Part shown: one piece after another, positions 650-21,690 of the stretch
Numbering within the stretch: position 1 is the stretch's first letter
Layout: each line of letters starts with the position of its first letter
From: Oscillatoriales cyanobacterium
GTDB lineage: Bacteria; Cyanobacteriota; Cyanobacteriia; Cyanobacteriales; Laspinemataceae
Assembly: GCA_011390955.1 (NCBI GenBank)
Contig: JAABRM010000069.1
Location: 1-37,851 of the forward strand
Length of the DNA stretch: 37,851 bases
Direction of reading: 5' to 3'
Position numbers and translations under genes: made by a program
The notes under the pieces: model-generated
What the model was told of the DNA's origin: nothing
Seen by the model: the letters and a program-made list of their open reading frames with translations, nothing else
The model's database searches: none

Positions 650-1480
650 ATGCCCTATAGTTTAGTTTTGAATTTAATCCCTACTTCCCCAATTTATCCT
701 CAGTATTTAACTGGGCGACATTTTCACGCGCTATTTTTAACTTTGGTATCTGCGGTCGATCGCGAACTGGGGGATTTATTGCATGAGTCAAATAGCGATA
801 AAGCCTTTACCTTGAGTCCGCTGCAAGTGACTCATGTTCCTAAACCTGAGAATTATATCCATTGTTTACAATGGCAACATTCTCAGCCAATTTCTCCCGG
901 AACTCCCTGCTGGTGGCGAATTTCTCTGTTAGACGATCGCCTATTTCAGCGATTAACTCAATTGTGGTTATCCCTGGATTTAGAAAATTCTTGGCATTTA
1001 GGATCGGCGGTTTTGAAGATTACCAGTATTTTAACCAATCCTAACCCCAATCAGCCTTGGGCAAAAGCCATGAGTTATCAGCAAATTTATGAGGAAGCCT
1101 CAGAAAGCGATCGCAAATTTAGCTTAATTTTTTGTACCCCGACCAGTTTTCGTCAGGGAAAATATGATTGTGCTTTGCCCAACCGAGAGGCGGTATTTCA
1201 GAGTTTAATTAATCGCTGGAATAAATATAGCATGATGCCGTTTAATTCAGAGTCATTTGACCAGATATTTCCCAGCTTTTTTGATATTAAAACGGAATTA
1301 GTCCAGGATAATCGGAGTAAGTTTATCGGTTGTGTGGGCAAAGTTGGTTATCAAATAATGGGCAATCTTGACCCTTTAATTGTTAAACAAATCAATGCCC
1401 TAGCTGACTTTGCTTTATATGCTGGAGTGGGTCGAAAAACCACAATGGGTATGGGCATGGTTCGGCGGTTTAACCGATAG
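650..1480 (+). CDS. cas6: CRISPR pre-crRNA endoribonuclease Cas6
   Basis: 276 residues. Cas6 cuts the pre-crRNA within each repeat to release crRNAs with an 8-nt 5' handle. The N-terminal part has the ferredoxin-like beginning seen in Cas6 (LTGRHFHALFLTLV, residues about 20-34, with histidines), and the C-terminus carries the glycine-rich loop typical of RAMP proteins (AGVGRKTTMGMGMVRRF, about 258-274). It lies between csc1 and cas4, as expected for I-D. The ATG at 650 has no clear Shine-Dalgarno sequence; the upstream region is C/T-rich repeat DNA. The likely substrate is the array at 4473-9109, whose repeat ends in ATTGAAAC. Confidence 0.88.
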   Translation: MPYSLVLNLIPTSPIYPQYLTGRHFHALFLTLVSAVDRELGDLLHESNSDKAFTLSPLQVTHVPKPENYIHCLQWQHSQPISPGTPCWWRISLLDDRLFQRLTQLWLSLDLENSWHLGSAVLKITSILTNPNPNQPWAKAMSYQQIYEEASESDRKFSLIFCTPTSFRQGKYDCALPNREAVFQSLINRWNKYSMMPFNSESFDQIFPSFFDIKTELVQDNRSKFIGCVGKVGYQIMGNLDPLIVKQINALADFALYAGVGRKTTMGMGMVRRFNR

Positions 1481-1490
1481 TTTTTGCCTG

Positions 1491-1558
1491 GTAGGGTGCG
1501 TTAGGCGGTCAGTTTTACCAGAGATTTATCAAGGTTGATTAAACCGCCGTAACGCACC
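1491..1558. repeat. Palindromic MITE-like element (GTAGGGTGCGTTAGGCGG type)
   Basis: Terminal inverted repeats GGTGCGTTAGGCGGT and ACCGCCGTAACGCACC (one interruption) enclose about 35 bp. Same family as 1570-1848 and 18325-18498. It begins 10 bp after the cas6 stop codon. Confidence 0.8.
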
Positions 1559-1569
1559 GATTATAAAAT

Positions 1570-1848
1570 GGTGCGTTACGGCGCTGAATCTAATTTATTT
1601 GCTGGGAATAATTAAGTTAACTCAGCGCCTAACACACCCTACGAAATTAACGATTATTAACGATTATAAAATGGTGCGTTACGGCGCTGAATCTAATTTT
1701 TTCGCTGGGAGTAATTAAGTTAATCCAGCGCCTAACACACCCTACGAAATTAACGATTATTAACGATTATAAAATGGTGCGTTACGGCGCTAAATCTAAT
1801 TTATCCGCTGGGAATAATTAAGTTAACTCAGCGCCTAACACACCCTAC
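1570..1848. repeat. Three tandem copies of a 103-bp MITE-like unit between cas6 and cas4
   Basis: Units start at 1570, 1673 and 1776, an exact 103-bp period. Each has a palindromic part beginning GGTGCGTTACGGCGCTGA and ending CAGCGCCTAACACACCCTAC, and linkers made of ATTAACGATTATTAACG. Internal sequence differs slightly between copies. No gene is seen in 1481-1874. Confidence 0.95.
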
Positions 1849-1874
1849 AAAACTACTAATATAGGTAACAATCC

Positions 1875-2474
1875 ATGAATGAATCAGAGTATATTCCCAT
1901 TGCGGCATTAAATCATTATGCCTATTGTGAACACCGTTGTTGGCGGATGTTTTGTGCTGGTGAATTTAGCGAAAATCAGTACACCATTGAGGGGACAAGT
2001 TTACACGATCGCGTCCATACAACCAGCTATATAACCAGTGAAAATAACCGAGAAGAAACGGAACAAGTCCGGGCAATTTGGTTAAAGTCAGCGCAGTATC
2101 AATTAATCGGTAAGTCGGATTTAATTGAGTCTAAAGATGGGCAATTGTACCCGGTGGAATATAAACGAGGCAACCGGGGAGAGTGGGATAATGATGCGTT
2201 GCAAGTGGTGGGTCAAGCCTTATGTTTGGAAGAAATGACCGGCAAAAAAATTGACCAAGGTTTTGTCTATTATGCCCATTCCCATCAGCGAGTTTCCGTC
2301 GATATTTCCCCGGAAATGCGGCAAGAAGCGATCGCGATTATTGGGAAAATTCAAGCCTTATTTACAACCGGAAAAATGCCCCCATCGGTGTATAGCCAAC
2401 GGTGTCAAGGGTGTAGTTTATTCAGTCAATGTTTGCCCCAAGCGGTGCAAAAAGTTGGGCGATATCAAGAATAG
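1875..2474 (+). CDS. cas4: CRISPR-associated exonuclease Cas4
   Basis: 199 residues, normal for Cas4, an iron-sulfur RecB-like nuclease that trims prespacers and helps select PAM-bearing DNA with Cas1-Cas2. Visible motifs: an N-terminal cysteine in NHYAYCEHRCW (about residues 13-23), the RecB motif PVEYKRGN (about 93-100), a QAL/GQALCLEEM segment, and the C-terminal cysteine cluster CQGCSLFSQC (about 176-185) for the 4Fe-4S cluster. It is followed 18 bp later by cas1, so the two are probably co-translated; the 5' gap instead holds repeats. The start ATG has only a weak upstream AGG. Confidence 0.95.
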   Translation: MNESEYIPIAALNHYAYCEHRCWRMFCAGEFSENQYTIEGTSLHDRVHTTSYITSENNREETEQVRAIWLKSAQYQLIGKSDLIESKDGQLYPVEYKRGNRGEWDNDALQVVGQALCLEEMTGKKIDQGFVYYAHSHQRVSVDISPEMRQEAIAIIGKIQALFTTGKMPPSVYSQRCQGCSLFSQCLPQAVQKVGRYQE

Positions 2475-2492
2475 AAACCAAGGAGAAAAAAT

Positions 2493-3497
2493 ATGGGAAC
2501 CGTGTACATTACGCAAGAAGATGCGTTAATTGGTAAAACCGATGAACGATTAAACGTCAAATTCCAAAAAGAGAAGTTATTAGATGTGCCCTTGATTAAA
2601 ATTGATGGGGTGGTGGTTTTGGGTCGGGCGACAGTTTCTCCAGCGGTGGTGACAGAGTTACTAACTCGGAAAATACCCCTAAGTTTTTTAACCAAAAATG
2701 GTAAATATTTAGGTCGCTTAGAACCAGAAGTGACCAAGAATATTTTTGTCCGTAAAGCCCAATGGCAAGCAGCGGGAGAATCAGCCAAAGCGGTTCATGT
2801 GGTGCGGGCTTTTGTCCGAGGCAAATTGAAGAATTACCGCAGTAGTTTGATGCGCTGTCAACGGGAAAATTTGGGAGTAGATTTAAGTTTAAGTATTGCC
2901 CAAATTAAGCAAAGTATTGAATCCCTGGAAAATACTAATTCTATTGATTCATTGCGGGGATATGAAGGGGCAGGAAGTGCGGCGTATTTTGGCTGTTTTC
3001 ACCGCTTAATTCGCAACCCAGAATTTACTTTTAAAACCCGCAACCGGCGACCTCCCACTGACCCGGTAAATTCCCTGTTGAGTTTTGGTTATGCGTTGCT
3101 GCGTCACGATGTTCAAAGTGCGGTAAATATTGTGGGGTTCGATCCATATTTAGGCTATCTTCATGTGGAACGTTATGGTCGCCCTTCTTTAGCCTTAGAT
3201 TTAATGGAAGAGTTTCGCCCTTTGGTAGTGGATGCAATGGTGCTGGCTGCGATTAATAAAGGGGCTTTATGTCCCGCAGATTTTGTCAGCGAACCGATTA
3301 GTCGGGCGGTGTCTTTGACCCCGGATGGGTTGAAAACTTTTCTGCGCCTTTATGAACAGAAAAAGCAGTCAACGTTTAAGCATCCGGTGATGGGACGGCA
3401 ATGCACTTATCAGGAGGCTTTTGAATGGCAAGCCCGACTTTTAGCCAAGTATTTAATGGGAGAAACCGATAAATATCCGCCGTTGGTGTTGAAGTAA
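2493..3497 (+). CDS. cas1: CRISPR adaptation integrase Cas1
   Basis: 334 residues, full length. Cas1 integrates new spacers at the leader end of the array together with Cas2. The metal-binding residues are recognisable: glutamate in RGYEGAGSAAYF, histidine in GYLHVERYGRPSLALDLMEEFRP, and the acidic residues of MEEFRPLVVD. The N-terminal beta domain (MGTVYITQEDALIGKTDERL) is typical. A strong Shine-Dalgarno AAGGAG precedes the ATG. It sits downstream of cas4, but a MITE and a heptamer repeat separate it from cas2 by 371 bp, an unusually wide gap for these two genes. Confidence 0.97.
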   Translation: MGTVYITQEDALIGKTDERLNVKFQKEKLLDVPLIKIDGVVVLGRATVSPAVVTELLTRKIPLSFLTKNGKYLGRLEPEVTKNIFVRKAQWQAAGESAKAVHVVRAFVRGKLKNYRSSLMRCQRENLGVDLSLSIAQIKQSIESLENTNSIDSLRGYEGAGSAAYFGCFHRLIRNPEFTFKTRNRRPPTDPVNSLLSFGYALLRHDVQSAVNIVGFDPYLGYLHVERYGRPSLALDLMEEFRPLVVDAMVLAAINKGALCPADFVSEPISRAVSLTPDGLKTFLRLYEQKKQSTFKHPVMGRQCTYQEAFEWQARLLAKYLMGETDKYPPLVLK

Positions 3498-4472: not shown

Positions 4473-7400
4473 GTTGCAACTATATTGAATCCCTATCAGG
4501 GATTGAAACAGGAATCTAGCGAGTTATCGTCTAGCTCTCAGCAGGTTGCAACTATATTGAATCCCTATCAGGGATTGAAACTTGAACTCCGAAGATAAAA
4601 AAGTAGCGCTTCTGAAGTTGCAACTATATTGAATCCCTATCAGGGATTGAAACTCCCGCTTGCTTTTGTATTATTCCCGCTGCTATGTTGGTTGCAACTA
4701 TATTGAATCCCTATCAGGGATTGAAACGCCTATTGAAGAGTAAATTAAAAAGCCCGGTATTTCGTTGCAACTATATTGAATCCCTATCAGGGATTGAAAC
4801 TGGACTATCGATCCATGTTTATCGCCCTCTGCGAGCCGGTTGCAACTATATTGAATCCCTATCAGGGATTGAAACAATCGATTACGAGCATCCGCCAAAA
4901 ACGACGCCGCGACGTTGCAACTATATTGAATCCCTATCAGGGATTGAAACTTTTTTGATATATTGGGACAGTCCCGCACAGTCCCGGTTGCAACTATATT
5001 GAATCCCTATCAGGGATTGAAACATCGCCGGATGAGGCTCAATTACGCTGGGGGATTAAGGTTGCAACTATATTGAATCCCTATCAGGGATTGAAACCCG
5101 GAATGTCCCGGAACGTGCGGGAATGTCCCGGTTGCAACTATATTGAATCCCTATCAGGGATTGAAACATTCTAGGCTTTGGGACAGGTGCAATTGGGATA
5201 ATGTTGCAACTATATTGAATCCCTATCAGGGATTGAAACTGCAATTAGTCTTTTCCCTAGCGCGATCGCTGTCTCGAGTTGCAACTATATTGAATCCCTA
5301 TCAGGGATTGAAACGAGACTGAAACCGAAGCGATCGCCGAAGCCAAAGCAGAGGTTGCAACTATATTGAATCCCTATCAGGGATTGAAACTAACAGGATA
5401 TCTACTATCGACTGGAAGGCTTGCGGTTGCAACTATATTGAATCCCTATCAGGGATTGAAACTGCGGAGGTGGGATTGATGGGATAAATCAGCATGAGTT
5501 GCAACTATATTGAATCCCTATCAGGGATTGAAACAGAACTTATGGCTATTGCTCTTACTACTTAATCAAGGGTTGCAACTATATTGAATCCCTATCAGGG
5601 ATTGAAACAGTCTATCAGGTTGACCCAAATTTTGCCCTAGGTGGTTGCAACTATATTGAATCCCTATCAGGGATTGAAACTAAATTCAAATTCGTGATTT
5701 GCTAGTTCCCGCCACCGTTGCAACTATATTGAATCCCTATCAGGGATTGAAACGTTGCAAGGCATGGATTTAGCTGCTAATCGCTCAATGGTTGCAACTA
5801 TATTGAATCCCTATCAGGGATTGAAACCCTTGCTTGCCCCCTCGCTCTCCCCGCCCCCGCGTTGCAACTATATTGAATCCCTATCAGGGATTGAAACTGG
5901 TCTCTATTTTGTGGATCGAGATTCTTTAGATATTGTTGCAACTATATTGAATCCCTATCAGGGATTGAAACACTTTAATTGTGAAGACTCCAAACACAAC
6001 TGACCGAGTTGCAACTATATTGAATCCCTATCAGGGATTGAAACCCGGCTCCTACATATAAAGTATTTACAGAGCGGTTGGTTGCAACTATATTGAATCC
6101 CTATCAGGGATTGAAACAGCGGTGGCGGGTTTACCAGTTGCCGTTCCGGCTCCTGTTGCAACTATATTGAATCCCTATCAGGGATTGAAACGCTAGATTC
6201 CTTAAGATTAAAGTAAGTTAATCGTGAGTTGCAACTATATTGAATCCCTATCAGGGATTGAAACATAAGCTTTTCTTCTTCGACCACCACGTTCTTCCCG
6301 TTGCAACTATATTGAATCCCTATCAGGGATTGAAACACCTTTGCATCCGACGCTAACTACGAAGCCCCCGGCGAGTTGCAACTATATTGAATCCCTATCA
6401 GGGATTGAAACGCCTCCGCAAATTGAGAAAGCTCGGTTTCGGACAGAGTTGCAACTATATTGAATCCCTATCAGGGATTGAAACCTCAACTCTTCTATCT
6501 AGAAGACGAGGAGCTATATGTTGCAACTATATTGAATCCCTATCAGGGATTGAAACCCGCATTCGGAGTATGGTGCAACCAGCACGTGAAGTTGCAACTA
6601 TATTGAATCCCTATCAGGGATTGAAACAATTTTTGGGGAAAATGGTACACCAAACCCTGACGCGTTGCAACTATATTGAATCCCTATCAGGGATTGAAAC
6701 TATTGAAGACTTAATCTCTTGTAATACTCGCTTCGCCGTTGCAACTATATTGAATCCCTATCAGGGATTGAAACGTGGGAGGACGGCCATCTTCTCACCG
6801 GCGGCATTAGGTTGCAACTATATTGAATCCCTATCAGGGATTGAAACTGAAAAAGTTTGTTTATGGGCGGAATTAAAACACCAATGTTGCAACTATATTG
6901 AATCCCTATCAGGGATTGAAACATGAGCAAGCCAAAGAGTGCAGCAATTCCGGTGGGTTGCAACTATATTGAATCCCTATCAGGGATTGAAACGTGGGAT
7001 TTCGATTTTTATCCCACATTAAATTTCAAAGTTGCAACTATATTGAATCCCTATCAGGGATTGAAACTTATTTGAGGATCAGACCAAGTATTTATGTGGT
7101 GAGTTGCAACTATATTGAATCCCTATCAGGGATTGAAACTCGGTGTTTGTGGGTTGCGCCCCTGGGCTCGATTCCGTTGCAACTATATTGAATCCCTATC
7201 AGGGATTGAAACTTCGCTTCCTCTGCTCCTCTGGAAATTTACTGGGATGTTGCAACTATATTGAATCCCTATCAGGGATTGAAACCCGCTAGTGGCTAAA
7301 GTGCCTGATCGGATCGCTGGTGGTTGCAACTATATTGAATCCCTATCAGGGATTGAAACTGTACCCTTGATCCTCTCCTCCTCCGGATGCGATTGCGTTG

Positions 7401-9109
7401 CAACTATATTGAATCCCTATCAGGGATTGAAACAAACCTAAGCATTTAGAAAAGTGGCAGAAAGCGATCGTTGCAACTATATTGAATCCCTATCAGGGAT
7501 TGAAACTTGGCTACCGGATCTAGCTCCATGCGCCGCCCCTGGAGTTGCAACTATATTGAATCCCTATCAGGGATTGAAACGTTTTCATCCAATAGAGACA
7601 ACTGTTTCATCTTTTGTTGCAACTATATTGAATCCCTATCAGGGATTGAAACAAGGGAACGTGCAGTTATTGGGTAAGGACAACCTAAGCCGTTGCAACT
7701 ATATTGAATCCCTATCAGGGATTGAAACATCAAACAAATGCTGGATTTACCAACCTTATACCGCAAGTTGCAACTATATTGAATCCCTATCAGGGATTGA
7801 AACATCGCAGACAATACACTATCAATACCCATAACTTAGTTGCAACTATATTGAATCCCTATCAGGGATTGAAACAAGTTAGCTTATCAGGTTGAGCGGA
7901 TTGACTTGTTTGTTGCAACTATATTGAATCCCTATCAGGGATTGAAACAGGTTTGGGGAACTGATAGGGATGCCTATGTATCCCGTTGCAACTATATTGA
8001 ATCCCTATCAGGGATTGAAACGACTTTGAAAGGTTCGAGGCATTCGGTGACACCGTAGTTGCAACTATATTGAATCCCTATCAGGGATTGAAACGCTGAC
8101 CGGATTCGTTCCTAGCAATCACCACGAAAGGGTTGCAACTATATTGAATCCCTATCAGGGATTGAAACAACTCAGGTGATGCGCTATGGCGGTTACATCG
8201 CAGAGTTGCAACTATATTGAATCCCTATCAGGGATTGAAACAAATGGTAGTCCGTGGCTTTGAAAACGAGCGAGTTTGTTGCAACTATATTGAATCCCTA
8301 TCAGGGATTGAAACAGCCGCTAGTGCTGATGGTCAATTTATTAGAATCAGCCTGTTGCAACTATATTGAATCCCTATCAGGGATTGAAACAAATTGTGAT
8401 AGTTTGACAGTGACATGGATGGGACAAGGTTGCAACTATATTGAATCCCTATCAGGGATTGAAACTAGAGGTTAGGGTACTTGACTCAACGCGACCCTTG
8501 GGGTTGCAACTATATTGAATCCCTATCAGGGATTGAAACTTGACGAAACACTAGGTGAATTTACGGTCAACGAATTGGTTGCAACTATATTGAATCCCTA
8601 TCAGGGATTGAAACGAATCCTTGTTAAGCAATCTTTAATTATTAAAATACTTGTTGCAACTATATTGAATCCCTATCAGGGATTGAAACAGACAGGTCCG
8701 CCGGAAGCTATGCAAGCTGTATCCCCTCGTTGCAACTATATTGAATCCCTATCAGGGATTGAAACGGGCAACTGACTGGATATAGCGGCGACGGCCATAC
8801 GTTGCAACTATATTGAATCCCTATCAGGGATTGAAACGCTCTGCCGCCGTGGTTGCCGCTGTCGGCGCCGGTGGCGTTGCAACTATATTGAATCCCTATC
8901 AGGGATTGAAACACAGGCTTTCTATCTCGATCTTCCGAGAAATTAAGTTGCAACTATATTGAATCCCTATCAGGGATTGAAACCGACTCCGGGCGATCGC
9001 ATTCCCGAACAGGGAAAATCGTTGCAACTATATTGAATCCCTATCAGGGATTGAAACTCCCCAAATTTTGCCCTTGCAACTATACTGAATCCTGATTAGC
9101 GACTGAAAC
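4473..9109 (+). CRISPR. Type I-D-associated CRISPR array: 63 identical repeats, 62 spacers, plus a degenerate terminal repeat
   Basis: I located repeats starting at 4473, 4545, 4617, 4691 and so on to 9021, 63 in all, each 37 bp and apparently without variation. The repeat begins GTTGCAAC (an 8-bp palindrome), contains the 7-bp stem AATCCCT-ATC-AGGGATT and ends in ATTGAAAC, the usual crRNA 5' handle. Spacers are 33-39 bp. After repeat 63 (9021-9057) only 15 bp separate it from a degenerate copy at 9073-9109 with 7 mismatches that destroy the stem, marking the old end. Transcription is left to right from the leader. Repeat-bridged reading frames in the array are not genes. Confidence 0.99.
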
Positions 9110-12062: not shown

Positions 12063-12066
12063 TAGG

Positions 12067-12693
12067 TTATTGAAAAATTTGGGCTGCGGTTAATTGTAAT
12101 TCTGGGAAAGCCAAAGACTCGATGATTTGATCGTCGCGAAATTGCTTAACTTCATATTCCCCATCGACCATAGTATAAACGGAAATAGTCGGTGATTTCG
12201 CATCACCAATAAAGCGGCGACCACCTAAACCCAGATAGTCTACAATCCAGTATTCTGGTATCCCCATTAACTCATAATCCCCGACTTTTCTCTGATAATC
12301 ATTTTGCCAATTAGTGCTAACAACTTCTACCACTAACCGCACTGTACTGCCTAAAGTAACGATCGACTCTTTTTGCCAACGAGGTTCATCACTTAACTTC
12401 TGTTTATCTAGGACAATAATATCAGGTTGATAACCCGATTCATCATCAAAGGGTTTCAGCAAGCAATCACCCGGAATAGAATAGGGTAATTCTTTACGGT
12501 CAATTTGCACTCCTAGTTTTAAGCTAATAAAACCAGTAATATTAGAGTGAGAACCTGTTGCTAAGGGCATTTCTACAATCCTTCCGTTGTGTAATTCATA
12601 TTTAACCACTGCATTTTCTGGATACCAGGATACAAATTCATCAAAGGAGATGGGTTTTGTAAACAAGGTGGGTTTTGTAATTGTCTGAGTCAT
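12067..12693 (-). CDS. Uma2 family (DUF820) PD-(D/E)XK nuclease-like protein, copy 1
   Basis: 208 residues. Uma2 proteins are abundant in cyanobacteria and have a restriction-endonuclease-like fold; their biological role is mostly unknown. Motifs: YQPDIIVLDKQ (about residues 92-102, catalytic aspartate), VRLVVEVVSTNW (about 118-129, ExV core), and YELMGIPEYWIVDYLG (about 140-155). The ATG follows no strong Shine-Dalgarno sequence. A second copy with only 18 differences of 208 residues lies at 15926-16552 in the same orientation, so this gene bounds one side of the NACHT module. Confidence 0.9.
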   Translation of the reverse strand: MTQTITKPTLFTKPISFDEFVSWYPENAVVKYELHNGRIVEMPLATGSHSNITGFISLKLGVQIDRKELPYSIPGDCLLKPFDDESGYQPDIIVLDKQKLSDEPRWQKESIVTLGSTVRLVVEVVSTNWQNDYQRKVGDYELMGIPEYWIVDYLGLGGRRFIGDAKSPTISVYTMVDGEYEVKQFRDDQIIESLAFPELQLTAAQIFQ

Positions 12694-12846
12694 GGTTTTT
12701 TTACTTATGAGTAATGAACGGGAAAAAGCAACTTTCTGAGAATTTTTTCGTGACTTGCCATTGGTTCAGGGTAACTTCAATGATCTATCAATAATATATA
12801 ATTTAGTATATAATTTAAAACTGGTAAATGACTGGTGAGGGTGGCA

Positions 12847-14994
12847 ATGAGGAAACAACAAAGTCCGGCTTGGCGCTATCTGCGGTTAGGGTTTGTGGCA
12901 TTGGCATTTGTGCTCTATCCCTATTTTGTGAGTCAAATGCCTACTTTAGCCAAACTGTTGGCAAATGTGCGGAATTGGGCGGTAACTGTTGGCGCACTTT
13001 TTTTTGCAGCGATCGTGTTCGTTTTTGAGCAGGAACTGCTGCACGAAAACTCCGCATCTGACTCAGAGGAGTTGTTACAAAAATTAGCCAAAGAAGATCG
13101 GCAGACGATCGGAGACCGACTGAAAAGTTCTCTGGATCAATATGCTTATATTCCGGTTAGCAGTATTGACTCGCCACAACATTTGGGGCGTCCTCCAGCG
13201 GTTGACTTGCAACGACAATTGCAAAATATGGAAACCGAAGCAGTCACCGACGTAGAAACCAGTAAACCAATTTTAGAGATTTTTGAGGAAGCTAACCGAC
13301 AGTTGCTAATTTTGGGAGAACCGGGCAGTGGCAAGACTACGAAACTGCTGCAACTGGCGGCAGCTTTGGCTGAAGTCGCCAAAAAAGATCCAGAACAGCC
13401 TATCCCGATTATTTTTGAACTGTCCGCATGGCGAGGAGAACCCATGCTGGACTGGATGGCAGAACAAATGACAGGGCAATATGGTGTAGATGTCCAGATT
13501 TGTCGGGATTGGTTAAAGAAAGGTAGAATCGTGCCGTTGCTGGATGGCTTGGATGAGTTGGGTGATGATCCAGATGGGAAATATGGCATTGAACAAGCGA
13601 TTCAGGCGATCGACCGTCTCCAAGAAGATTACCAAGAACAGCAGCCCGCTTTAGTCATCTGTTGTCGGATTAAAGACTATGAAGCGGTCAAAGACGACCA
13701 ACAAGATCCCATCCGGGTGAAAAAAATCGATCGGGCGGTGCGGCTTTGCCCTTTAAGCGATCGGCAAATTCAGGATTATTTAAGCCAACGACTGGGACTG
13801 CACCTGTGGCAGGAGTTGTCCAACTACCCAGGGTTGATGGAGTTAGCCCGGAATCCCATGTTATTAAATCTGATGCCGACCACATATCCCGATGAATTTC
13901 CCAAAGATTCTCCTCAAGACCCGCAAACTTGCCAAAATCGGCTATTTGAAGATTTTTTACAGCAAAAACTCCAGTCTCAGCCTCTGGAAGCATATCGCCC
14001 TAAACAATCCCAACATTACCTCGCGTGGTTGGCTGCCAGTATGCAGCGAGAAGGAATCAATCAACGAGAATTTTTAATCGAAGGATTGCAACCCACTTGG
14101 TTAGAAACTGTCCAACAATGGCGACAATATCGGCTGATCGGCGGGCTGATCGGCGGGCTGATCGGCGGGCCGATCTTTGGGCTGATCTTTGGGCTGATCT
14201 TTGGGCTGATCGGCGGGCTGATCGGCGGGCTGATCGGCGGGCTGATCAGCGGGCTGATCTTTGGGCTGATCTTTGGGCTGATCTGGGGTATTTCCGATAA
14301 CTCCGATAACATTGAACTGACAGAAGCCCTGGATCTATCTTGGCATGGAATTAAGCGCGGGCTGATCTTTGGGCTAATCGGCGGGCTAATCGCAGCGCCG
14401 ATCAACGGGCTGATGTTTGGGCTGATGTTTGGGCTGATCTTTTTCATGCTGTTTGGGCTGATCGTCGGCCCGATCGCAGGGCAGATCGGCGGCTCGATCG
14501 CAGGGCTGATCGGCGGACTGATCCTATGGCCGATCGGCGGGCTGATCGGCGGGCTGAAAGCGGAACTGAAAGTCAGAACCTATCCCAATCAAGGGATTTG
14601 GGAAACAGGGATGAAAACTCTAATTACTATTGGTTTAGCCTTGCCTCTTTGTCCCCTGATATTTATTGTGCCGAATTGGGCAACGGGACAAGAAGTGAAT
14701 CTGACTGACGCGTTGATTCTAGGGGGATGTGCAGGGATTTTACTGGGATTTCAGATGGGGGGTGGTGTGGCAATGGTGCAACATTTTGCCTTGCGGTGGG
14801 TGTTGTCTCGTCGGGGTCGAATGCCCTGGAATTATGCCAAATTTCTCACTGCCGCCAGTGATGCAGGTATCTTAAAACAATCGGGCGGACGTTATCGGTT
14901 TTATCACGATAAATTGCGGGAATATTTAGCCCGTGGCATCGAGTTAAAAATTGAGCCGAAACCGATTTCTCCAATGGATAACCCGGTCAATTAA
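12847..14994 (+). CDS. NACHT-domain NTPase with glycine-zipper membrane repeats
   Basis: About 715 residues from the ATG at 12847, preceded by GAGGG; a GTG at 12835 is the alternative. Two hydrophobic segments lie at the N-terminus (about 10-60). The NACHT NTPase follows: Walker A GEPGSGKTT (about 157-165), Walker B VPLLDGLDEL (about 228-237), and CCRIKDYEAV (sensor region). Residues about 429-570 are a tetrapeptide array of GLIG and GLIF units, hydrophobic with a glycine every fourth residue. The C-terminal part ends in YRFYHDKLREYLARG, a motif common at the end of cyanobacterial NACHT proteins. STAND NTPases act as molecular switches, often in defence; that role is inferred here. The next gene follows in the same frame after the TAA. 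Confidence 0.85.
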   Translation: MRKQQSPAWRYLRLGFVALAFVLYPYFVSQMPTLAKLLANVRNWAVTVGALFFAAIVFVFEQELLHENSASDSEELLQKLAKEDRQTIGDRLKSSLDQYAYIPVSSIDSPQHLGRPPAVDLQRQLQNMETEAVTDVETSKPILEIFEEANRQLLILGEPGSGKTTKLLQLAAALAEVAKKDPEQPIPIIFELSAWRGEPMLDWMAEQMTGQYGVDVQICRDWLKKGRIVPLLDGLDELGDDPDGKYGIEQAIQAIDRLQEDYQEQQPALVICCRIKDYEAVKDDQQDPIRVKKIDRAVRLCPLSDRQIQDYLSQRLGLHLWQELSNYPGLMELARNPMLLNLMPTTYPDEFPKDSPQDPQTCQNRLFEDFLQQKLQSQPLEAYRPKQSQHYLAWLAASMQREGINQREFLIEGLQPTWLETVQQWRQYRLIGGLIGGLIGGPIFGLIFGLIFGLIGGLIGGLIGGLISGLIFGLIFGLIWGISDNSDNIELTEALDLSWHGIKRGLIFGLIGGLIAAPINGLMFGLMFGLIFFMLFGLIVGPIAGQIGGSIAGLIGGLILWPIGGLIGGLKAELKVRTYPNQGIWETGMKTLITIGLALPLCPLIFIVPNWATGQEVNLTDALILGGCAGILLGFQMGGGVAMVQHFALRWVLSRRGRMPWNYAKFLTAASDAGILKQSGGRYRFYHDKLREYLARGIELKIEPKPISPMDNPVN
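14131..14286 (+). repeat. 12-bp coding tandem repeat (GGGCTGATCGGC / GGGCTGATCTTT)
   Basis: Thirteen or so in-frame 12-bp units encode GLIG or GLIF in the NACHT protein; a second, more diverged block continues at 14358-14562. Copy number can change by slippage without shifting the frame. Confidence 0.93.
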
Positions 14995-15501
14995 TTGGTT
15001 GGCATCATTGTTCTATTATTTTTAGGAGTTTTATTACCTCGAATTGCATCAAGCACAATTGCGTTTAACCCAGGTTCGGTGATGGCGATGCATCCGGTAA
15101 TTCAAGCCAGCGATCTAGTCTGGTATGACCGAATCACTTATCCCCGTTGGCGGTCTCCCCAGCGGGATGATGTAGTTGGTTTTTCCACGAAAGACTTAGC
15201 CGCAGAATTTGATTATTCATTCGCATTTCGTCGGATTATTGCTTTACCGGGTGAAACCATTGAAATTCACTCAGGCAAAATCATCATCAATGGCAAACCT
15301 TTCACCCACCCGGACATTAAATTACCGGCCAAATTTGCTCAACCTGAGATTACTCTTAATGCTGATGAATACTATGTGATTGGCCATAACCCCGATTATC
15401 CCGATATGTCAACTTTCGGCGCGGTGGTTCCCCGCGAGAATATTCGGGCTGAGTTAGTGTTAAGAATTTATCCGTTAAATCGGTTTGGTTGGATTCGTTA
15501 G
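14995..15501 (+). CDS. S26 signal peptidase I-like protein lacking the catalytic Ser and Lys
   Basis: 168 residues if started at the TTG at 14995, which directly follows the TAA of the NACHT gene in the same frame. A hydrophobic N-terminal anchor (VGIIVLLFLGVLLPRIA) is followed by the signal peptidase fold: box B region GSVMAMHPVIQASDLVWYD, box D FRRIIALPGETIEIHSGKI, INGKPF, and the C-terminal GHNPDYPDMSTFGAVVPREN. In active enzymes box B has S-M-x-P and box D has K-R-V; here these read A-M-H-P and R-R-I, so both catalytic residues appear replaced, and GDN-x-x-x-S-x-DSR is also altered. It is best read as a pseudoenzyme. It may be a separate coupled gene or the C-terminal part of a former fusion. 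Confidence 0.75.
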   Translation: MVGIIVLLFLGVLLPRIASSTIAFNPGSVMAMHPVIQASDLVWYDRITYPRWRSPQRDDVVGFSTKDLAAEFDYSFAFRRIIALPGETIEIHSGKIIINGKPFTHPDIKLPAKFAQPEITLNADEYYVIGHNPDYPDMSTFGAVVPRENIRAELVLRIYPLNRFGWIR

Positions 15502-15890: not shown

Positions 15891-15925
15891 ACCTTAATTT
15901 TCACCAAAGAAACCCGGTTTCTAGG

Positions 15926-16552
15926 TTATTGAAAAATCTGGGCTGCGGTTAATTGTAATTCTGGGAAAGCCAAAGACTCGATGATTTCTTCCCCTCGAAA
16001 TTGCTTAACTTCATATTCCCCATCGACCATAGTATAAACGGAAATAGTCGGTGATTTCGCATCACCAATAAAGCGGCGACCACCTAAACCCAAATAGTCT
16101 ACAATCCAGTATTCTGGTATCCCCATTAACTCATAATCGCCCACTTTTCTTTGATAATCATTTTGCCAATTAGTGCTCACAACTTCTACCACTAACCGCA
16201 CTGTACTGCCTAAAGTAACGATCGCCTCTTTTTGCCAACGAGGTTCATCACTTAACTTCTGTTTATCTAGGACAATAATATCAGGTTGATAACCCGATTC
16301 ATCATCCCAGGGTTTCAGTAAGCAATCACCCGGAATAGAATAGGGTAATTTTTGCCGTTTGATTTCAAAATGGATTTCACCAGTAATAAAACCAGTAATA
16401 TTAGAGTGAGAACCTGTTGCTAAGGGCATTTCTACAATCCTTCCGTTGTGTAATTCATATTTAACCACTGCATTTTCTGGATACCAGGATACAAATTCAT
16501 CAAAGGAGATGGGTTTTGTAAGCGAGGCGGGTTTTGTAATTGTCTGAGTCAT
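15926..16552 (-). CDS. Uma2 family (DUF820) PD-(D/E)XK nuclease-like protein, copy 2
   Basis: 208 residues, the near-identical partner of 12067-12693 with the same motifs (YQPDIIVLDKQ, VRLVVEVVSTNW, GIPEYWIVDYLG). Of 18 differences, ten fall in residues 57-68 (SLKLGVQIDRKE in copy 1 versus TGEIHFEIKRQK here), so divergence is patchy, suggesting gene conversion or recombination with another family member. The 3' flank is also homologous to copy 1 apart from the MITE inserted there. It is on the opposite strand to the NACHT gene. Confidence 0.9.
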   Translation of the reverse strand: MTQTITKPASLTKPISFDEFVSWYPENAVVKYELHNGRIVEMPLATGSHSNITGFITGEIHFEIKRQKLPYSIPGDCLLKPWDDESGYQPDIIVLDKQKLSDEPRWQKEAIVTLGSTVRLVVEVVSTNWQNDYQRKVGDYELMGIPEYWIVDYLGLGGRRFIGDAKSPTISVYTMVDGEYEVKQFRGEEIIESLAFPELQLTAAQIFQ

Positions 16553-16635
16553 AGTTTAGGGTAATTTTAATGCTCTATTATTACTCAATATTATATCAAT
16601 AATTGATTAATTTGACAACCACAATCAGTCTAATT

Positions 16636-21194: not shown

Positions 21195-21690
21195 AAAATA
21201 ACTCTCCATTTCGGCCAACGGTGATTCAAGACTAATTCGATCGGTAGATCGGCAGCTTTTACATCGGGCCGCGAAAATCAGCGATCGATGATTCCCCGGC
21301 AAGCATAAAGCTGGGCAAGCTAACTACTGAACTTTGCCTTTACTCATATCTTCCATTATTCAACCTTTACCGCTACAGTTTCTCTGATTTAAGTTATCAG
21401 ATTTCAACATTTAGACCGGAGTTCACGGTTCACGATTCACTGTTGGGTGAAGTTGTGGGCGGTTCCCTTAACAAATAACAAATAACAAATAACAAATAAC
21501 TTAACAAATTTTGCTAAAACTTAACAAAAAATTGCTAATTTTTATGTTTTATTAAGAGATAATATGAAAAATTTTTTTTACTTTACACACAAGTCCGGCA
21601 TTGCCAATATTGTTTGTGTGTTGAGCGTTGTGTTCGGATATCGGGGCATCACAGGTTGTCAGTAACCAAGATGTTATTAGGTGTTTGTTA
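21195..21690. other. Intergenic region between divergent acnB and the GGDEF-EAL gene
   Basis: Contains AGTTCACGGTTCACGATTCA direct repeats (21419-21440), an AAATAAC heptamer repeated four times (21471-21500) and an AT-rich stretch at 21510-21600 that could hold both promoters. No gene is seen. Confidence 0.6.

Follow-up and report, generated by a model that had tools for sequence, protein, structure and literature searches.

We analysed a pair of adjoining open reading frames (ORFs) in an Oscillatoriales cyanobacterium of the family Laspinemataceae, the first encoding a NACHT nucleoside triphosphatase (NTPase) and the second a protein related to signal peptidases of peptidase family S26. They lie in a stretch of 37,851 nucleotides (contig JAABRM010000069.1, assembly GCA_011390955.1), which is referred to in its full length as the window; the NACHT part and the S26 part are called the head and the tail, respectively. 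Within positions 12847–15501, the sole internal stop codon is the TAA at 14992–14994. The next codon, TTG at 14995, is in the same frame, which remains open until the terminal TAG at 15499–15501. The frame reading agrees with the preliminary description of this DNA, which stated that the NACHT frame is stopped by this TAA and resumes in frame from the TTG to 15499. The features of the locus are as follows.

12835–14994, plus strand: NACHT head ORF, 719 amino acids from GTG at 12835, with ATG at 12847 also in frame; ends in TAA
12967–13044, plus strand: N-terminal hydrophobic stretch, residues 41–66 (hydropathy)
13297–13626, plus strand: NACHT NTPase core with Walker A (GEPGSGKT) and Walker B (LLDGLDEL) (Pfam and head alignment)
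14143–14298, plus strand: glycine-zipper run, residues 433–484, 13 consecutive GxxxG tetrads on a 12-nucleotide tandem repeat (repeat scan and hydropathy)
14359–14556, plus strand: second hydrophobic GxxxG-rich stretch, residues 505–570 (hydropathy)
14824–14931, plus strand: winged-helix-like end of the NACHT module, NYAKFL...GGRYRFYHDKLREYLA (head alignment)
14992–14994, plus strand: in-frame TAA, the 21st codon past the winged-helix motif (frame reading)
14995–15501, plus strand: tail ORF, 168 amino acids, membrane anchor and pseudo-S26 domain, TTG start and TAG stop
15085–15087, plus strand: Ala at the column of the S26 nucleophile Ser (alignment)
15229–15231, plus strand: Arg at the column of the S26 general-base Lys (alignment)

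Both halves are above the Pfam cut-offs: the head matches NACHT with E 3.9e-6 and 27.2 bits (cut-off 26.7), and the tail matches Peptidase_S26 with E 2.7e-12 and 47.4 bits (cut-off 22.9). The NACHT scores of two relatives, G470 and L035, are 31.5 and 30.6 bits. The residues around GGRYRFYHDKLREYLA are conserved in all 12 aligned heads, and this region may be a winged helix. The glycine-zipper membrane region of the preliminary description was correct and is defined more sharply by the tetrads and tandem repeat listed above. Four other NACHT paralogues in the same genome (C83, C107, C108, and C56) end at most a dozen residues from the winged-helix motif and have no tail.

NACHT proteins fused to a pseudo-S26 domain

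When the window tail was compared with 99 related genomes, the ten closest places outside the window all lay within frames of 801–977 amino acids. A search with an alignment of 13 tails (designated A1) against 388 genomes drawn from the order found 22 tail places in 21 genomes, all with E 1e-38 or better. Seventeen of these tails share a single open frame of 801–977 amino acids with a NACHT part, and the remaining five are those of the window (168 amino acids), G470 (173 amino acids), G068 (interrupted by an N gap), and G530 and G459 (at a contig edge). The head–tail junction is uninterrupted in 20 of the 22, including G068, G530, and G459, which are continuous across it. The exceptions are the window, where one TAA stands between head and tail, and G470; in neither are the two parts joined in one open frame.

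Because 17 of the 22 tails are in one frame with a NACHT part and the nucleophile Ser is missing in all 22, the fusion of a NACHT protein to a dead signal peptidase is a real and recurrent architecture, and it was seen only in cyanobacteria of this order. The preliminary description had suggested that a single nonsense codon might interrupt what was a fusion and that a switch ATPase might be tied to an S26 fold without activity, and the same counts support both suggestions. It had also considered that homologues might always be separate genes; this is not so, as the search for NACHT proteins running on into an S26 domain yielded the 17 one-frame relatives. Members include Oscillatoria sp. SIO1A7, Oscillatoria sp. 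HE19RPO, Oscillatoriales cyanobacterium USR001, Laspinema sp. D2d, Roseofilum acuticapitatum, and Geitlerinema sp. P-1104. Across 388 genomes drawn from the class, the matches in the genome of the window and in G021 alone were separate from ordinary signal peptidases (2.5e-65 or better vs. 2.5e-38 for the next match), and no additional members came from searches of four family sets with 10, 61, 20, and 13 genomes, some of which were shared between sets. The NACHT-S26 module is missing from the congeners G001 and G002. ORFs were read for 20 of the 80 named loci.

Hydropathy analysis of nine members showed one to three N-terminal membrane stretches in eight (none in G093), several membrane stretches in the GxxxG region in all nine, and a membrane stretch before the S26 domain in seven (none at the threshold used in G648 and G470).

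Loss of the catalytic residues

The catalytic columns were compared in an alignment of the 22 tails with 161 other distinct S26 ORFs (163 minus two fused copies), including a remnant from Spirulina that is described below. The Ser column of the tails contains Ala (8), Gly (6), Met (5), or Thr (3) and never Ser, and Lys is retained in only five tails and missing in 17. Both residues are present in 145 of the 161 other ORFs, and the window genome itself encodes three further S26 proteins, each with both. An active signal peptidase is rejected on the basis of Ala and Arg at the catalytic columns of the window tail and the lack of Ser in all 22 tails. The window tail nevertheless passes the NCBIfam model of signal peptidase I (TIGR02227; 62.5 bits, cut-off 47) despite the missing residues, and automatic naming would assign this function to a tail that lacks them. 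The stretch behind the Lys column has four invariant positions across the 13 tails of A1.

An AlphaFold2 model of the window tail had a predicted local distance difference test score (pLDDT) of 88.9 and a predicted template modeling score (pTM) of 0.82 (31 alignment rows, 23 of which are S26 proteins outside the fusions). A Foldseek search with this model gave SipA (PDB 4n31) as the best PDB match by E-value, and SpsB and LepB were also matched. As judged from the model, the S26 fold is retained in the window tail.

Dead S26 domains were also observed elsewhere. A protein combining a kinase and an S26 domain (G044; L047:1826–3508) has Gly at the Ser column and Ser at the Lys column and is thus a dead S26 domain on another signaling enzyme; this kinase-pseudo-S26 arrangement corresponds to a receptor layout. 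When 388 genomes were searched for such kinase proteins, the starting protein alone had a frame longer than 400 amino acids among the matches listed. S26 proteins without the Ser-Lys pair also occur in Lachnospiraceae and other Clostridia (L069, L070, L093, L105, L106, and L124). In viral contigs, 34 stretches fitted a search pattern, three of which encode weak S26 relatives (25–43% identity).

Breaks in the linker and probable loss of the tail

The window is one of four loci in which the gene is broken 1–27 codons past the winged-helix motif. G470, which belongs to the genus of Roseofilum acuticapitatum (G046), has a lone in-frame TGA right behind the motif, followed by an open tail in the same frame; at this position, the three sister loci carry a sense codon. 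In Spirulina sp. CCY15215, the head is whole, the frame stops after 13 residues beyond the motif, and an S26 remnant of 59 amino acids is left in a different frame. Laspinema D2d has a second gene (C17) with a whole head, the frame of which is lost in the linker, and no tail within 4.6 kb downstream. In trees built from 19 heads and 22 tails, the window and G470 splits fall into separate clades, requiring two events. None of the 22 tails adjoins a head known to be broken, three heads being not assessable. If the two in-frame stops were evenly placed, the probability of finding both in the linker would be 8e-4, a weak argument, since a gene broken within its head may be destroyed and disappear. 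Heads that had lost their tail were looked for in the family's 14 genomes only, and one more was obtained via its S26 remnant; head G013 (L233) runs into a contig edge and is uninformative about the tail.

Recurrent loss of a dispensable tail fits these data best and is most likely, with the split as an early stage that leaves the head whole. The proposed series would lead from the fused gene to a split gene with a whole tail, then to a split gene with a decayed tail, and finally to the absence of the tail. Our best explanation overall, which we consider probable with some reservation, is that these genes form a family of membrane-embedded NACHT proteins with a dead S26 domain, that the window copy is a split member whose two ORFs are halves of one gene, and that its tail is being lost.

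Several observations weigh against parts of this explanation. For the window tail, the ratio of nonsynonymous to synonymous substitution rates (dN/dS) was 0.16 in one and 0.20 in the other of the two computable pairs, with synonymous sites near saturation and three more pairs not computable. For the G470 tail, the ratio is 0.23–0.32 (four pairs). Neither tail exceeds intact tail pairs (0.23–0.64). The undecayed window tail fits a recent stop, and it would also fit a tail that is still translated. The four invariant positions behind the Lys column do not hold across all 22 tails, with G470, G648, G458, and G459 differing. The TM-scores of the tail model to SipA, SpsB, and LepB are alike at about 0.5–0.6, and the nearest solved structure by sequence is an ordinary signal peptidase (4me8, E 2e-15), with SipA at E 0.005. 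An AlphaFold2 prediction of a fused relative of 869 amino acids (L054; 8 rows) reached a pTM of only 0.25. Furthermore, the tail-less heads argue against a simple model in which the tail keeps a killer protein quiet.

Histories of heads and tails

The head of USR001 (G648) groups with that of G005 (support 96/96), and its tail groups with the Roseofilum group (100/99). It is also the closest relative of the window head (67% identity), whereas the tails of the two are only 43% identical. The window tail is nearest to those of G005, G007a, and G008 (51–52%), and the position of the window is poorly supported in both trees. Identities between the window and G511 are 39% for the tail and 50% for the head, and those between G007a and G008 are 94% and 78%, respectively. 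The sequence comparison suggests that head and tail may not share one history, most plainly in G648, and that tails have been exchanged.

Alternative explanations

The tail might be a mere extra membrane anchor or scaffold rather than a ligand sensor. This would accommodate the lost catalysis, the fact that the tail can be lost, and its faster divergence than the head in several pairs, such as the window and G511. The S26 beta fold that the model predicts to be retained points the other way, as do the pairs in which the tail is better conserved than the head (G007a and G008), and a plain anchor needs no approximately 130 extra residues. We regard this explanation as rather unlikely.

The TAA could also be an error of sequencing or assembly in an intact, ordinary fusion gene. 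Three other loci are independently broken in the same linker, so a real break at this site is not improbable, and the frames of the remaining long genes scanned in the window are open. The relatives being fused, and the tail being otherwise undamaged and under constraint like that of intact tails, are what such an error would predict; we consider it unlikely on balance.

The preliminary description had also offered a stop–start coupled pair or a readthrough product. The tail would then be made by reinitiation at the TTG (or at an inner start) or by readthrough and would act in trans as part of a working two-protein pair. The position of the TTG directly after the TAA, the intact tail ORFs in both the window and G470, and the unrelaxed constraint agree with this possibility. 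An inner ATG at 15082 is associated with a stretch of −7.4 kcal/mol, although this stretch extends into the start codon and translation from there would omit the anchor. No Shine-Dalgarno-like site is present at 14995 (−2.9 kcal/mol, equal to the background median); this is weak evidence because two of the six other genes checked, cas6 and the gene at 21628, also lack one. The stop in G470 is a different codon at a different place, and the detached tail has decayed in two other loci (Spirulina CCY15215 and Laspinema D2d C17). Neither coupling nor readthrough gained positive support from these observations, and a working pair appears quite unlikely.

Chance adjacency, in the same frame, of a NACHT gene and an unrelated ordinary signal peptidase gene, as the TIGR02227 name for the tail might imply, is rejected as extremely improbable in view of the 17 fused relatives, the missing catalytic residues, and the three other S26 proteins with both residues already held by the genome.

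Comparison with known systems

The presence of Walker A and Walker B and the Pfam NACHT score above the cut-off place the head in the NACHT clade. Like the NACHT-clade NTPases of the STAND (signal transduction ATPases with numerous domains) class, including bacterial NACHT proteins (bNACHT), the family has a NACHT core with both Walker motifs and a central switch followed by a C-terminal domain; unlike them, it carries a membrane region rich in GxxxG ahead of the winged-helix-like end, and its C-terminus is a dead S26 domain. NCBIfam models of antiphage NACHT proteins scored far below their cut-offs: EruA gave 31.2 bits in the window and 39.1 bits in L035 (cut-off 1000), and HyoA gave 13.9 bits in L035 (cut-off 1200). 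Matches to the PADLOC antiphage models were likewise weak and partial: the best in the window was mad8 with E 4e-4 over 37 residues, and the G470 head matched mad8 with E 8.5e-7 and 26.8 bits over residues 209–368, in the ATPase part only.

Signal peptidase I (LepB and SpsB; S26A) resembles the tail in having a membrane anchor and an S26 beta domain, for which both the Pfam and NCBIfam cut-offs are passed. It differs in the catalytic residues, with Ser present in none of the 22 tails and Lys missing in 17. Another parallel is SipA (PDB 4n31 and 4k8w), which has an S26 fold without the catalytic dyad and is the best fold match of the tail by E-value. In the literature on SipA, this S26 homologue without Ser and Lys is described as essential for pilus assembly, and the Streptococcus pyogenes protein as having a peptide-binding cleft (PMC4049620). 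SipA is a separate protein of a pilus locus, whereas the dead domain here is part of a cyanobacterial NACHT protein, and no sortase or pilin families were found among the 15 other ORFs of the window scanned with Pfam.

As far as the main texts of two reports cover them, conflict systems of multicellular bacteria combine STAND and NACHT NTPases with variable domains (PMC7159879, PMC8195603); a word search of these main texts found neither "signal peptidase" nor "S26". No description of a NACHT protein combined with a signal peptidase or peptidase S26 was found in searches of open-licence PubMed Central papers. NACHT NTPases as such are known, as are dead S26 proteins and STAND proteins that carry variable domains; no account of their combination was found in these searches.

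Proposed mechanism

We propose that the family protein consists of a NACHT NTPase resembling those of nucleotide-binding leucine-rich repeat (NLR) proteins, a GxxxG-rich membrane region, a winged-helix-like end, a membrane anchor, and a catalytically dead S26 domain, in this order. The NACHT part would be cytosolic, and the pseudo-S26 domain would lie on the periplasmic (or thylakoid-lumen) side, like that of signal peptidases. The pseudo-S26 domain presumably binds peptides or signal-peptide-like segments without cleaving them. Such binding would switch the NTPase, which would oligomerize, and the GxxxG segments would act within the membrane. The tail is probably a modulator rather than a core component because heads without a whole tail exist. 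The fused protein may thus be an NLR-like switch in the membrane, the outer domain of which senses the state of the envelope or binds peptides. If so, an NLR-like protein would receive a kind of input that is new for it, from the export machinery or from the outer membrane face. The family also makes it possible to test whether a pseudo-enzyme serves as a bacterial sensor, and it offers natural fused, split, and tail-less variants for comparison.

In plants, some NLRs carry integrated decoy domains, in which a copy of a host protein is joined to an NLR-type switch. The likeness of the NACHT-pseudo-S26 family to these proteins is an analogy only. By this analogy, a bacterial counterpart can be imagined in which protein export is guarded by the dead signal peptidase I copy, which the NACHT switch keeps outside the membrane. 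Phage products or toxins that bind or block signal peptidase, or flood it with signal peptides, would dock on the decoy and trigger the switch and the GxxxG membrane segments, and splitting in the linker would let the decoy be lost or exchanged. We consider this version quite unlikely.

Genomic surroundings

The NACHT-S26 module is bracketed by a direct repeat containing a Uma2 gene, and copies of an 86-nucleotide repeat lie on both sides.

12063–12698, minus strand: Uma2 gene and flank, first copy, left of the module
15922–16557, minus strand: Uma2 gene and flank, second copy, 96% and 98% identical over repeated stretches of 300 and 174 nucleotides

The left (Ddl) and right (DUF29 and aconitase) flanks of the window match places 5.5 Mb apart in a contig of G002 (approximately 1.7 Mb if circular), and the comparison with the congeners G001 and G002 found no clean empty site. 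A CRISPR array with a 37-nucleotide repeat (4473–8912), located behind cas6, cas4, and cas1 (650–3497), ends approximately 4 kb left of the NACHT gene. These nearby CRISPR-cas genes are compatible with a role in defense and do not prove it.

Among the 20 loci compared, no gene adjoins the fusion in more than four. The most widely shared neighbor is a small gene found in G021, G458, G093, and G508 (two families), which we take to resemble Phd/YefM-type antitoxins.

L040:4493–4858: small neighbor gene
L045:9145–9468: small neighbor gene
L196:3076–3465: small neighbor gene
L202:2575–2898: small neighbor gene

In the G093 group, another small gene lies directly upstream of the fusion (L045:7922–8314, with similar genes in L201 and L202). 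It has no Pfam match and shares a GxYVEGDYY-like motif with the start of the NACHT protein. At the locus of a tail-less NACHT paralogue of the window genome (L164, G000:C83; 203–3384), a gene with a caspase domain (Pfam Peptidase_C14) adjoins the NACHT gene, and a similar linker occurs where the caspase-domain gene ends and where the NACHT gene begins.

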